A DNA stretch of 64,000 bases from Spirochaetales bacterium (GCA_012523305.1 JAAYIV010000029.1:1-64000), one strand, 5' to 3'. Shown: positions 32,229 to 37,150, counted from the stretch's first letter. Notes: generated by a model from the sequence alone, not told the origin. Translations and numbers: made by a program.

Positions 32229-35162
32229 TCACAAAGGCGTCACCGAACGTACCTCGATGCTCAATGCTCCCTGTTCGTTTTGGACTGAACCTCTCACGAT
32301 CAGAGGCTTTTGGCCGAAGAGAATGTTGCGGAAGCGTTGATATGTTTGAGGAAAAAGTACGGTTTCATACAAGGCCGTCTCATCCTCGAATGAGACGAAA
32401 TTCATGGCAAGGCCGTCTTTCGTCCAGATTTCCTTTTGAGTTACCGGCCAACCGAGCAGAGTGACAAAACGACCTTCCCAAGCAGGGATGTCACATGCTC
32501 GGATCCGTTTCAGCTTTGCTATCTGGCTTGCCCAGAGAAGCAACGGATGGCTTCTACGGAGAAATCCGAGTGTTGCGAACTCTTCGCGCAATTCGTTTTG
32601 ATTTGGTATGCTAAGGGCAATTGCTTGGGATTCTTTCTGTAACAGTCTGCTCACCGGCAAGGCTGGTTCGGCAAAAAGGGATTGCCTTTGCAAAGCCATT
32701 TTATGCATACCTGCTAGCAATGTCCTTGCCTGCAAGGTCCTGGGCATCTGTTTCACTATTGAATCAAATACTCCGGCAGCCACCAACGACACGACATCCT
32801 CGGTTGAAAAGGCTATCCTGGATATGACATCGTTCAAATCAATAAAATAACCATTGGTTTGTCTTTCGGAAATCAGTGTTGAAACGGCTGTTTTGGTGAG
32901 ATTGCCAATCGCCATGAACCCGATCACAAGCGAAGAGCCTTGCGCGTAATAGCGTCGCATGCTGCGATTGATATCAGGCCCGTCGATTGAAAGACCCATT
33001 CTCCGGGCTTCGCTGATATATGCCTGAGCCCTATAATATCCTCCCTGATTTGAAAGGACGGCTGCCATGAACGCTGCGGGATAGTGAGTTCTCAAGTATG
33101 CGCTTTGGAATGATACCATCGCATAAGAAGCGGAATGAGGCTTACAGAATGAATAACCGTCGAAGGATAGCATCATGGACCAAATTTCCTCTGCCGTATG
33201 GCTTTCCACTTTATTGGCAGCACATCCGTTGAAAAACTGTTCCTTATAGTAATGAAGTTTGGTTCCTCCGGCTTTTTTCGAAATAATCTTACGTAGTGTA
33301 TCGGCATCGGCTTCACTGAAGCCAGCCAAGGCAACGGCAGTTTTCGATACATCTTCCTGATAGCAGAGTATTCCGTATGTTTCAGCGAGGATTGTCGACA
33401 ACCGTGGATGCAGCGGGTTCCAAGAGCCCCCCTTGAGACGACGCACGTATTCGGCAATATACTTGTTGGCTGCCGGCCTGATAATCGATGAGTGGATCAC
33501 GATATGGTCAAAATCTCCTTTGCCCGTCTTTATCTGTAACTGGCGCATTGCCGGAGACTCTATGTAGAAGACCCCCATGCTATCACCCTGTGCCAAGGCT
33601 TCTTGGGTAATCTTGTCTTCGGCGGGACGCCATGTGTGTTCGTCGATGATTATCCCCTGTCGGTGTAGGTTTTGAAGTGTATCGCGAATGACAGCCAATG
33701 ATCGATTTCCCAAAAGATCCAATTTTACAAGTCCCGCAGCTTCGGTCCCTTCTTTTTCCCATCCGAGCAAAGGGAACCCTTGTGCGCTGCGTTCCACAGG
33801 GGCAAAGTCGGCAATCGGCCCCGGTGTGATCACAAGACCGCCGCAATGCATTGAAATACCTCGGGGAAGCCCTTCAATGCGTTTTGCGATGGTCAAGACT
33901 TGTTTCCACAGCGGATCGTCGATCGCATCAATGTTCTGTTGTTCAAAAAGGGTTCGCTCAGCCTGGCTGATCGTCGCATCGGGAATACCGTATGCTTTTG
34001 CAGTCTCCCGTAATGCACAACGGGCTCTGAAACGATTATGGTTTCCCACGCGGGCGCATCGGTCTCTTCCGAATCGTTCGATTACTTTATTCAACAGTTC
34101 ATCCCGTTCATCCCATGCAAAATCCACATCGATGTCGGGAGGGTCCGGCCTCGACACGGTAAGGAATCGTTCGAAGTAGAGATTGTGGGCGATCGGATCG
34201 ACATTGGTTATTCCCAACGAGTATGAAACGATGGATGCCGCGGCAGAGCCCCTGCCACAGGTCCGTGATGCCATCGCGACGATATCGTCCATCACCAAGA
34301 AGTAGGGTGCGAACCCCTTTTGACCGATTATGTCAAGTTCGTAATCGATCCGGTCCATGATCGCATCAGAAATTTCCCCGTACCGTTTTTCTGCTCCGGT
34401 GAGTACACGTTTGCGTAGTTCTTGAAACGCTTGCTTGCCCATATAATCCGGGAAGATAAAACCATCGAATATCGTATCGAATGTGCAAAGCTCTGCAATC
34501 CGTTCGGTCCCCTCAAGTGCTTGCGGCCACGATGAGAACAGTTTGTCCATTTCTTCGGGGGACAGCAGCCGCGCATCTGTTGGGCAACGATCATTCATGT
34601 CCAGCGATCCTACGGTCTTGCCCAGTGCAATCGCCCTGAGAACCGAATGGATTGTCATATCTTCGGGTTCGATGAAAACAGAATCTTCCAAAGCTGCCAA
34701 AGGAAGGCCCAGACGTCGCGCGCAAGGGATGCTTCCCAGAGAACGGGGGGTGACTGCGGCAAAAAGGAAGGGAATCCGGTGTGCCATGGCTTCAAGCAAT
34801 GTCACATCATCGGTTGCTACCACCAAACCTTGTGAATTTTCAATCAATGCATTGACGATGTCGAATTCATGTTCGGTACGTACCGTTGACACGAGTCTGC
34901 ATACCCTGGAGAAACCCTTCCGGTCGCGTACAAAGACAAACAGCGAAGCTGATTGTCGGGTAACGAACTCAACCGAAACAATCGGTCTGATGCCGGAATC
35001 TTTGGCAACTTCCAAAAAATCGTGTACTCCGTAGAGGTTTTCCCGATCACTGATGGCAAGTGACGTAACTTTCCATTCTGAAGCCTTGCGCATGATCTCG
35101 GCTGGAGAGCAAACGCCATACAGCAGTGAATAAAAACTGCGGACTCCCAATAGGCTACGCAT
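32229..35162 (-). CDS. DnaE-type DNA polymerase III alpha subunit, probably translesion (DnaE2/ImuC-like)
   Basis: A 977-residue C-family polymerase, shorter than replicative DnaE (about 1,160). The polymerase core is intact: CGRGSAAASIVSYSLG and PDPPDIDVDFAWDERDELL (about residue 340) with the catalytic aspartates, then the helix-hairpin-helix and OB regions (VTLLGWPVTQKEIW, LIVRGSVQNEQG). The N-terminal PHP domain has lost its first metal site: the usual HLHVHS reads GVRSFYS. The gene overlaps the inactive Y-family polymerase upstream by eight bases. Size and context match DnaE2/ImuC, the error-prone lesion-bypass polymerase, rather than the replicative enzyme. A weak hairpin with a T-run follows the stop on the minus strand. 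Confidence 0.88.
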   Translation of the reverse strand: MRSLLGVRSFYSLLYGVCSPAEIMRKASEWKVTSLAISDRENLYGVHDFLEVAKDSGIRPIVSVEFVTRQSASLFVFVRDRKGFSRVCRLVSTVRTEHEFDIVNALIENSQGLVVATDDVTLLEAMAHRIPFLFAAVTPRSLGSIPCARRLGLPLAALEDSVFIEPEDMTIHSVLRAIALGKTVGSLDMNDRCPTDARLLSPEEMDKLFSSWPQALEGTERIAELCTFDTIFDGFIFPDYMGKQAFQELRKRVLTGAEKRYGEISDAIMDRIDYELDIIGQKGFAPYFLVMDDIVAMASRTCGRGSAAASIVSYSLGITNVDPIAHNLYFERFLTVSRPDPPDIDVDFAWDERDELLNKVIERFGRDRCARVGNHNRFRARCALRETAKAYGIPDATISQAERTLFEQQNIDAIDDPLWKQVLTIAKRIEGLPRGISMHCGGLVITPGPIADFAPVERSAQGFPLLGWEKEGTEAAGLVKLDLLGNRSLAVIRDTLQNLHRQGIIIDEHTWRPAEDKITQEALAQGDSMGVFYIESPAMRQLQIKTGKGDFDHIVIHSSIIRPAANKYIAEYVRRLKGGSWNPLHPRLSTILAETYGILCYQEDVSKTAVALAGFSEADADTLRKIISKKAGGTKLHYYKEQFFNGCAANKVESHTAEEIWSMMLSFDGYSFCKPHSASYAMVSFQSAYLRTHYPAAFMAAVLSNQGGYYRAQAYISEARRMGLSIDGPDINRSMRRYYAQGSSLVIGFMAIGNLTKTAVSTLISERQTNGYFIDLNDVISRIAFSTEDVVSLVAAGVFDSIVKQMPRTLQARTLLAGMHKMALQRQSLFAEPALPVSRLLQKESQAIALSIPNQNELREEFATLGFLRRSHPLLLWASQIAKLKRIRACDIPAWEGRFVTLLGWPVTQKEIWTKDGLAMNFVSFEDETALYETVLFPQTYQRFRNILFGQKPLIVRGSVQNEQGALSIEVRSVTPL

Positions 35163-36327
35163 GGAACAATGAGCATGCCAAGGTAATGGCTTCGGGACCG
35201 AACTGTAACCGACTCCTGTCTACGGCAACCTGCAACCGGCCTATGCGTTCGAGTTTCTCTGGAGTAAATAAGTCTGCCTGGCGGGAAGGAGCGTCGAGAT
35301 CGGCCAATGTTACCGCCAAGCCACGAATTCTAACCCGCCGGGTTGCCGCCCGGCAGAGGACGTTACACGCAGCCTCCACTAATTCGGTGTCGAACTGCAG
35401 CGGTCGAAAACACTTTTCTTGGCAAGCTGTCTGTACCCCGTCCGCATAGAGTATATTGATGCCTACACTCCCGGCTTCCAGTTTCGATTGGCGCATCTCA
35501 AGTCCGACATCCTCGATGGTAGTGGCTAGTGCGGCTTGTATTGCAGTTTGATCGAGTAACGGTTCGGAAAAATCGACCGTACGGCGAATCTTACGTTGTG
35601 ACAGATTGCCGGCAGATACTTTGGAACAATCAATTCCCTTTGCCGAATCGCGCAGTACCAGTCCCTTTTTACCGAACAGCGCGAGTGCTTCATGATCTTG
35701 CAATGCTGCCAGCTCTCCGATTTCCCTTAGTCCGGTCACCGAAAGTATTTTGGCCATGGCGGGCCCGACTCCGGGAAGCAGCAATGCATCCTGAGGTGCT
35801 ATGAAATCGGCTTCCTCACCCGAACGGATACCGACTATTCCGGCGGGTCGTATCGCCCTGGTCGCGATTTTTGCCACCAGTTTGTTTGCGGCTACCGCCA
35901 CGGAGGGAGTCAGTCCGATACGTCTATTGATTTCATTACGGATATGGATGGCACAGTCGATGTGGGGGCCAAAAAGAGAAGAAGTCCCCGCAAGATCAAG
36001 ATACAAATGTCCTCCGCTATCGTTTTGGATTGTCGGTGTGTAAGTTGAGGCTATCTCTTCCATGGATCTGTGGGCAATGGTATACGCTCGGGGATCAGGA
36101 GATAACACTTTTAGGTTCTTTACCATCCTTTGTGCATGTGTAAGCGGTAGACCAGAATAGATACCCTCTTCACGGGCTTTGTTTGATACTGCCAAGACTA
36201 TCGCTCTTGCGGCACCTGCCTTTGCCACGACAAAAGGCACGTCTGCCAGACTTCTGTCCTTGGCAATGGCGATTGCAGCGGCAAAGTCAGTTATGTTCAA
36301 GTGCACGATACTTGATTGTGGCATCAT
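35155..36327 (-). CDS. ImuB-like Y-family DNA polymerase homologue without catalytic acidic residues
   Basis: A 390-residue protein aligning by eye along the whole of DinB. The ATG at 36327 overlaps the DUF72 stop (ATGA). The two-metal catalytic residues are missing: the DinB block H-x-D-x-D reads HLNITD (Asn11, Thr13), and SLDEAYLD reads SGGHLYLD (Gly106 and His107 replacing Asp-Glu). The helix-hairpin-helix region LLPGVGPAMAKILSVTGL and the little-finger part are kept. Loss of activity with retained DNA and partner binding is the hallmark of ImuB, the scaffold that recruits DnaE2 to damage; the next gene is such a DnaE. The C-terminus is shorter than in typical ImuB. Function is inferred. 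Confidence 0.85.
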   Translation of the reverse strand: MMPQSSIVHLNITDFAAAIAIAKDRSLADVPFVVAKAGAARAIVLAVSNKAREEGIYSGLPLTHAQRMVKNLKVLSPDPRAYTIAHRSMEEIASTYTPTIQNDSGGHLYLDLAGTSSLFGPHIDCAIHIRNEINRRIGLTPSVAVAANKLVAKIATRAIRPAGIVGIRSGEEADFIAPQDALLLPGVGPAMAKILSVTGLREIGELAALQDHEALALFGKKGLVLRDSAKGIDCSKVSAGNLSQRKIRRTVDFSEPLLDQTAIQAALATTIEDVGLEMRQSKLEAGSVGINILYADGVQTACQEKCFRPLQFDTELVEAACNVLCRAATRRVRIRGLAVTLADLDAPSRQADLFTPEKLERIGRLQVAVDRSRLQFGPEAITLACSLFHA

Positions 36328-37115
36328 GAATCGCGGTCCTTTCCCAACAACTGCAAAAGAGTCTTTGCATTGGCGACTGCTTGCCCCCTGCGATGGTTGT
36401 TGAAGTATATGAAGATCATGGTCACCTGTTGTGCGATTGCCCTGATTCGTTCCACCCAAGTCTCTAGTTCATGCTTGCTGTACAGGTAATCGTAACGGGC
36501 GGCGGCATCCGATCCCCACCAGGTCTCTTCATTTCTTCCGTGTAAGCGTATGTAAGCGATATCGGCCGTCTTGGCATCGACAACCGGCGGTAATCCCTTC
36601 AATGCCGGCAAGTCAATCGAAGCCAATGCGACATTACGCTCTCTCAGGGCCTGGAATGTGCGGTTGTTGTACCACTGCGCGTTCCGGAACTCAATAGCCA
36701 GCGGAAGTGATCCCATATGACGGAGCACGGCGTCAAGGTATCGCCGCCGATCCGGATCGTAGTGGAACGAGTATGGGAATTGGAGCAATACCGCACCGAG
36801 CTTATCATGCCCGGCGAGGACTTCAACCGCAGACATGAATGCATTAGCCTGTTGTTTCCATGTGTCCGGATCAATCGTATGGGTGAGACTCTCATTGGCT
36901 TTGATGGAGAACATGACCTGTGTGCCCGACTGATCGAGCAATCGAGTCATTTGATCTGCGGTGGGCATGCGGTAATAGCTAAAATTCAGCTCCACGGTAG
37001 AAAACATCTGTGCATAAAGATTGAGATATTCGCCCTGACTCGTTCCCGGCGGATATACGGGACCGACCCATTCCGTGTAACTGTAGCCTGATGTTCCGAT
37101 CAAGATGGTTGCCAT
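36324..37115 (-). CDS. DUF72 family TIM-barrel protein
   Basis: A 263-residue protein of the DUF72 (YecE) family: TILIGTSGYSYTEWVGPVYPPGT at the N-terminus, FSIKANESLTH, LGAVLLQFPYSFH, LAIEFRNAQWYN and the C-terminal IYFNNHRRGQAVANA, all family blocks. The biochemical role of DUF72 is unknown; a TIM-barrel nuclease or nucleic-acid enzyme has been suggested from fold. Here it is the first gene of a coupled operon with the ImuB-like and DnaE genes, in the place usually taken by ImuA. There is no Shine-Dalgarno; the promoter -10 ends six bases before the ATG, so the mRNA is probably leaderless. Confidence 0.9.
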   Translation of the reverse strand: MATILIGTSGYSYTEWVGPVYPPGTSQGEYLNLYAQMFSTVELNFSYYRMPTADQMTRLLDQSGTQVMFSIKANESLTHTIDPDTWKQQANAFMSAVEVLAGHDKLGAVLLQFPYSFHYDPDRRRYLDAVLRHMGSLPLAIEFRNAQWYNNRTFQALRERNVALASIDLPALKGLPPVVDAKTADIAYIRLHGRNEETWWGSDAAARYDYLYSKHELETWVERIRAIAQQVTMIFIYFNNHRRGQAVANAKTLLQLLGKDRDS

Positions 37116-37121
37116 GTGAGC

Positions 37122-37150
37122 ATTATACTATACGTTTGTTTACTAATCAA
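37122..37150 (-). promoter_or_regulatory. promoter of the DUF72-imuB-dnaE operon
   Basis: On the minus strand TTGATT (37150-37145), a 17-base spacer and TATAAT (37127-37122), with the ATG at 37115 only seven bases beyond the -10 box. Transcription should start at the start codon itself. Confidence 0.65.

Follow-up and report, generated by a model that had tools for sequence, protein, structure and literature searches.

A candidate ImuA-less DnaE2B-iPolY-RecA-type mutasome operon in Spirochaetales with a conserved DUF72 gene and a probable LexA box

Which kind of mutasome is encoded by an operon that joins a DUF72 gene to genes for an inactive Y-family polymerase and a second DnaE, and what might DUF72 contribute to it? 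This question is raised by a 64,000-nucleotide stretch of DNA from a Spirochaetales bacterium (GCA_012523305.1 JAAYIV010000029.1:1-64000), hereafter called the window. Three coupled genes lie on its minus strand: a DUF72 gene, first in the operon (36324..37115, 263 amino acids), a gene for an inactive Y-family polymerase, here named iPolY (35155..36327, 390 amino acids), and a gene for a DnaE2B-type DNA polymerase III alpha homologue (32229..35162, 977 amino acids). The iPolY ATG overlaps the DUF72 stop codon as ATGA and the DnaE start overlaps the iPolY stop by 8 bases, as a preliminary description of the locus had reported. From the sequences and the published systems compared below, we consider it likely that the operon encodes an SOS-induced translesion mutasome of the DnaE2B-iPolY-RecA type, without ImuA and with DUF72 as a conserved accessory. 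Mutasomes of this ImuA-less kind are already known (2019, 2026); what is new here is the conserved DUF72 component and a 20-base-pair (bp) palindromic operator.

The Y-family protein (Pfam IMS/IMS_C, 7.7e-29) has lost its active site. In an alignment to solved DinB structures, N11, T13, G106 and H107 fall on the metal-binding catalytic acidic residues, so that the first catalytic motif reads N11-I12-T13 instead of D-x-D (36289..36297, minus strand) and the second G106-H107 instead of D-E (36007..36012, minus strand). The same replacements recur in nearly all relatives, as HxNx(T/I/A)DF and (G/D)GH.YLD, and the sequences thus indicate that loss of the catalytic residues, which the preliminary description had noticed in this one protein, is a family-wide feature. 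The window genome's own DinB, on another contig, retains HVDMDAF and SIDEAFLD. A structure model of iPolY (predicted local distance difference test score, pLDDT, 77) has a Y-family-like order of elements and a helical, low-confidence tail.

The DnaE, recognized by its DNA_pol3_alpha, finger, PHP and HHH_6 domains (Pfam, 7.9e-64 and weaker), keeps all three polymerase acids, namely D343 and D345 in PDIDVDF (the catalytic DID, 34128..34136, minus strand) and D482 in KLD. The HxH of its PHP domain is lost and reads GVR, whereas the genome's replicative DnaE (1183 amino acids, another contig) retains it. This agrees with the earlier observation of a broken PHP site beside an intact PDIDVDF. DnaE2 proteins usually lack the PHP metal site (PMC3919608), and the loss was also seen in the DnaE2-type proteins compared here; it therefore fits an error-prone type, and the idea that it is a special feature of this operon was rejected. 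In a tree of 23 rows with few references, the DnaE clade is sister to the Bacteroidetes DnaE2B of Emticicia and Persicobacter (support 100/99) and lies apart from both DnaE1 and the ImuA/ImuB-linked DnaE2A.

The C-terminal end of iPolY suggests how such a pair could work without ImuA. ImuB and UmuC, like many Y-family proteins, carry at their end a motif that resembles the N-terminal motif through which RecA oligomerises (RecA-NT), as shown by Timinskas and Venclovas in 2019; the same work describes operons with an inactive PolY and DnaE2 and no ImuA, in which RecA is the presumed partner (PMC6511836). A 2026 survey names such sets DnaE2B-iPolY-RecA and includes among them the widespread gbDinB2 group (PMC12926913). 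In the window, iPolY carries QADLF (residues 350-354; 35266..35280, minus strand), a pentapeptide resembling a beta-clamp-binding motif of the kind that the preliminary description had proposed to look for, and it is conserved in the family as (Q/E)xDLF or similar. The tail that follows, LQ.AVD..R..FG, is kept across relatives and includes a RecA-NT-like motif at residues 364-386 (RLQVAVDRSRLQFGPEAITLACS; 35170..35238, minus strand). A weight-matrix scan of RecA with iPolY tails placed the best site at RecA residues 22-44 with a weak score, which made a profile-profile comparison with a within-RecA control necessary. The tail profile matched RecA residues ~22-44 at E 2.5e-5 (hhalign), compared with E 0.009 or worse for other RecA windows. 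The corresponding motif of the window genome's RecA spans residues 22-44, and the 20 genomes tested each gave a single strong match to the RecA family. Since iPolY carries this motif, RecA itself probably takes the ImuA role.

The operon thus resembles the DnaE2B-iPolY-RecA sets in its inactive Y-family subunit with a RecA-NT motif, in its DnaE2B, and in having neither ImuA nor an ImuB-C domain (PMC6511836, PMC12926913). Of the features that the sequences allow to be compared, the RecA-NT motif and the DnaE2B grouping were both found. The comparison with the gbDinB2-like group was made on published features. The published operons often include lexA (PMC6511836, PMC12926913), and the sub-clade of the window differs from them by DUF72, added as the first gene.

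The pairing of DUF72 with iPolY is conserved well beyond the window. DUF72 lies directly upstream of iPolY on the same strand in 58 loci from the window's phylum and the Desulfobacterota, and in 33 of them iPolY and DnaE overlap by 8 or 11 bases, which argues that the association is not due to chance; the survey that the preliminary description had called for thus returned a strongly conserved association. Within the window's family, iPolY is present at E < 1e-58 in 33 of 139 genomes, with DUF72 directly upstream and DnaE downstream in all but one of the 30 loci examined, the exception being a truncated iPolY. Across the phylum (393 genomes), iPolY (E 5e-178 to 1.7e-80) separates cleanly from DinB (E > 1e-73), and DUF72 stands upstream in all 24 further iPolY loci examined, from at least seven families. 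In the Desulfobacterota (395 genomes; the phylum of a Desulfococcus relative), DUF72 accompanies iPolY of the same type at 8 of 13 loci and is absent from the other 5. Most of the DUF72-bearing loci have lexA in front (lexA-DUF72-iPolY-DnaE), an arrangement also annotated on a Desulfosarcina ovata plasmid, and a further Desulfobacterota group with HxHIPAF-type iPolY has the order lexA-iPolY-DnaE without DUF72. Presence of DUF72 changes 3 times on the iPolY tree, compared with 20.3 times for shuffled labels, and its history can be explained by a single gain and two losses. That genomes lacking the operon DUF72 might have moved it elsewhere was considered and rejected, since the DUF72 proteins they retain are more distant paralogues, sharing 26-29% identity with the operon type of the Desulfobacterota. 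G434 (L135, L136) and G350 (L131, L053) each carry the DUF72-iPolY module twice.

Structures have been solved for members of the very widespread DUF72 family, but we know of no function for it; among the control genomes, the family is found in those of E. coli, B. subtilis, Thermotoga and archaea. The window protein covers the full domain (Pfam PF01904, E 3.7e-64, 217 bits against a cut-off of 25.3) and matches TM1631 (PDB 1vpq) over its full length (161 bits, E 3.6e-46). In TM1631, Tyr48, Lys72, His79, Arg145 and Arg191 have been proposed to hold DNA or phosphate, and an endonuclease-like role has been predicted from docking and simulation (PMC3828134). These pocket residues correspond to Y48, K72, H79, R144 and R190 in the window protein, with conservation of 90% or more within the operon family; the conserved pocket comprises K72, H79, R144, R190, H192 and N239-H241. 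A fold search returned DUF72 structures, sugar epimerases and the UV damage endonuclease 2j6v (template-modelling score 0.49, E 1e-3; low-confidence model), the single-sequence structure model behind it being poor (pLDDT 60) and serving only as support beside the sequence homology. DUF72 is therefore probably a UV-endonuclease-like TIM barrel, an accessory that would bind or process lesion DNA. DUF72 and SRAP are also enriched beside the genes of PolB2 mutasomes, another translesion polymerase complex, although these have a B-family polymerase with iRadA and PPB2 and no C- or Y-family subunit (PMC11791011). The window genome has a second, divergent DUF72 gene (L194:1062-2334, contig C93), which lies tail to tail with a gene that, by reading of its translation, resembles the very short patch repair endonuclease Vsr.

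Regulation of the operon by DNA damage is suggested by its promoter. The sequence TTGATT-N17-TATAAT (37122..37150, minus strand) encloses a 20-bp palindrome, TAGTAAAC-AAAC-GTATAGTA (37126..37145, minus strand), which is conserved at orthologous operon promoters; the consensus of the upstream regions is TACTATAC-N4-GTATAGTA, located between the -35 and -10 hexamers. A palindrome search allowing 3 mismatches performed no better than a reversed control, and we therefore used a weight matrix built from 43 promoters with 28 distinct sites. The training sites score 19-31.5 bits, compared with 6.1 for the best of 252 unrelated 300-bp windows, and the window operator, itself part of the training set, scores 23.7 bits, whereas no other site in the window exceeds 6.6. 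Outside the window's family, five genomes carry the operator at their dinB promoters (8.7-16.4 bits), three at recA (11.7-20.0 bits) and two at lexA (13.4 bits, plus a second, overlapping site). One operator shared by recA, lexA and dinB is the signature of a LexA box, so the operon palindrome is probably a LexA box as well; LexA scored above its cut-off in 18 of 18 genomes. The known SOS boxes of Leptospira differ (TTTGN5CAAA; PMC3789691). The -10 hexamer ends 7 bases before the DUF72 ATG and the 10-base spacing from operator to ATG is conserved, suggesting that the operon mRNA may be leaderless. In the window's family, good operator sites occur only at the DUF72-iPolY-DnaE operon and at a handful of further loci, which suggests that the regulon has become smaller in this family.

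Some single sites may be recorded here. One of 22.7 bits lies 3 bases before an open reading frame in G434 (L137, site at 1633) that looks like a radical-SAM protein, which we take to be a DNA repair protein linked to uracil-DNA glycosylase. In the same genome, the operator is present at only one of the two DUF72-iPolY copies. Operator-like sites were also seen directly before a RecQ-like helicase open reading frame (12.6 bits; L082 of G093, site at 1501) and between dnaA-like and gyrB-like open reading frames in the window genome (14.7 bits; L091, contig C149).

Taken as a mutasome of the DnaE2B-iPolY-RecA type, the operon could work as follows. LexA would sit on the palindrome inside the promoter, and DNA damage would lead to DUF72, iPolY and DnaE being made together. 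Unable to synthesise DNA, iPolY would serve as the adaptor of a complex, with QADLF anchoring it to the beta clamp and the RecA-NT tail anchoring it to RecA, and would bring in DnaE as the sole working active site, one without a PHP proofreading site. DnaE could then copy across lesions or fill gaps there in an error-prone manner, while DUF72 would most likely bind or process damaged DNA beside the stalled end.

Several other explanations must be weighed against this. The ImuA-ImuB-DnaE2 mutasomes of Caulobacter, Mycobacterium and Pseudomonas also place a dead Y-family adaptor and a second DnaE in one damage-regulated operon, and the overall composition of the locus, like that of imuB-dnaE2, would suit a true member of this class with imuA elsewhere in the genome. 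However, the ImuA model NF033429 (an imperfect detector, which matched control genomes only below its cut-off) finds in the window genome a single match, RecA itself, at 47.9 bits against a cut-off of 150. Moreover, iPolY ends within ~4-10 residues of the RecA-NT motif and so has no room for an ImuB-C domain, and the DnaE falls outside the DnaE2A clade. On these grounds we reject membership in the ImuA-ImuB-DnaE2 class and regard an imuA elsewhere as extremely improbable, in line with the absence of ImuA that the preliminary description had assumed. That description also had DUF72 taking the position of ImuA, which would make it an adaptor bound by iPolY. Although DUF72 does occupy the operon place of ImuA and no ImuA was detected, this version is very unlikely, because iPolY keeps its RecA-type binding tail, even in the DUF72-less clade members (rows L005-L007), and because DUF72 is a TIM barrel unrelated to RecA or ImuA. 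What stands is an ImuA-less variant mutasome that combines a dead Y-family subunit, an error-prone-type DnaE and a conserved DUF72, the last most likely matching ImuA in gene position but not in role.

The contribution of DUF72 is itself open to different readings. It might be a mere co-regulated passenger with a separate function, leaving iPolY-DnaE-RecA as the working unit, as sister operons without DUF72 and the main text of the 2026 survey, whose account of such a complex does not name DUF72 (PMC12926913), would suggest. We find this doubtful, given that DUF72 is directly upstream, coupled and fixed in order in 58 loci with few losses, and given its enrichment beside the unrelated polB2 genes (PMC11791011). 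It is also unlikely that the operon performs repair synthesis rather than mutagenic bypass, with DUF72 nicking or marking lesions like a UV endonuclease and DnaE and iPolY filling the patch. A UV damage endonuclease does occur among the fold neighbours of DUF72 (fold search; PMC11791011), and DUF72 is first in the operon and near-universal beside iPolY in the window's phylum, but the catalytic metals of endonuclease IV and UVDE are absent from DUF72 structures (PMC3828134), the DnaE lacks a PHP site and groups with error-prone types, and relatives work without DUF72. Other observations weigh against the damage-induced mutasome with DUF72 as accessory that we prefer. The palindrome is absent from the examined recA, lexA and dinB promoters of the window's own family, so the case for LexA binding is drawn from other families. 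The core does not depend on DUF72, since two lineages of the clade have lost it and keep iPolY-DnaE, and G315 has DUF72-iPolY with no DnaE match within ~9 kb. Solved DUF72 members show no metal in the pocket (PMC3828134), and DUF4113, the Pfam family that holds the RecA-NT motif, matches only 3 of 17 members (best E 0.12).

With these points in mind, we tentatively propose that DUF72 serves a C/Y-family mutasome as a dedicated, damage-induced component, either a subunit or an enzyme that processes lesions, possibly recruited once in this clade and independently beside PolB2 mutasomes. If so, this would be the first function for the DUF72 family. Because DUF72 sits in a fixed operon beside a dead adaptor and a polymerase of error-prone type, with a probable SOS operator in the promoter, a lesion-handling role becomes testable. 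The operon also adds a third component to the ImuA-less mutasomes and suggests a LexA box for a phylum with few known. Our literature search found no paper describing the palindromic operator, or DUF72 with DnaE2 or ImuB; the main texts of PMC6511836 and PMC12926913 do not describe the latter, and their supplementary tables may list DUF72.

The genes adjoining the operon appear unrelated, judging from their translations, with an Rnf-like set downstream and divergent NADH-dehydrogenase/hydrogenase-like genes upstream. Defence-system models gave no match to any of the three operon proteins, no fusions among the DUF72, iPolY and DnaE genes were found, and a search for iPolY on phages or viruses found none. 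A family of the same class has an intact DinB/Pol IV within a single open frame of ~2,000 amino acids (L217:1158-7175 in G338, L216:819-6968 in G417, and ~20 more genomes). The C-terminal part of this frame, ~1,600 amino acids, has a signal-peptide-like start and looks secreted or outer-membrane, so the frame is either a conserved fusion of a polymerase with a surface protein or is kept open for another reason.

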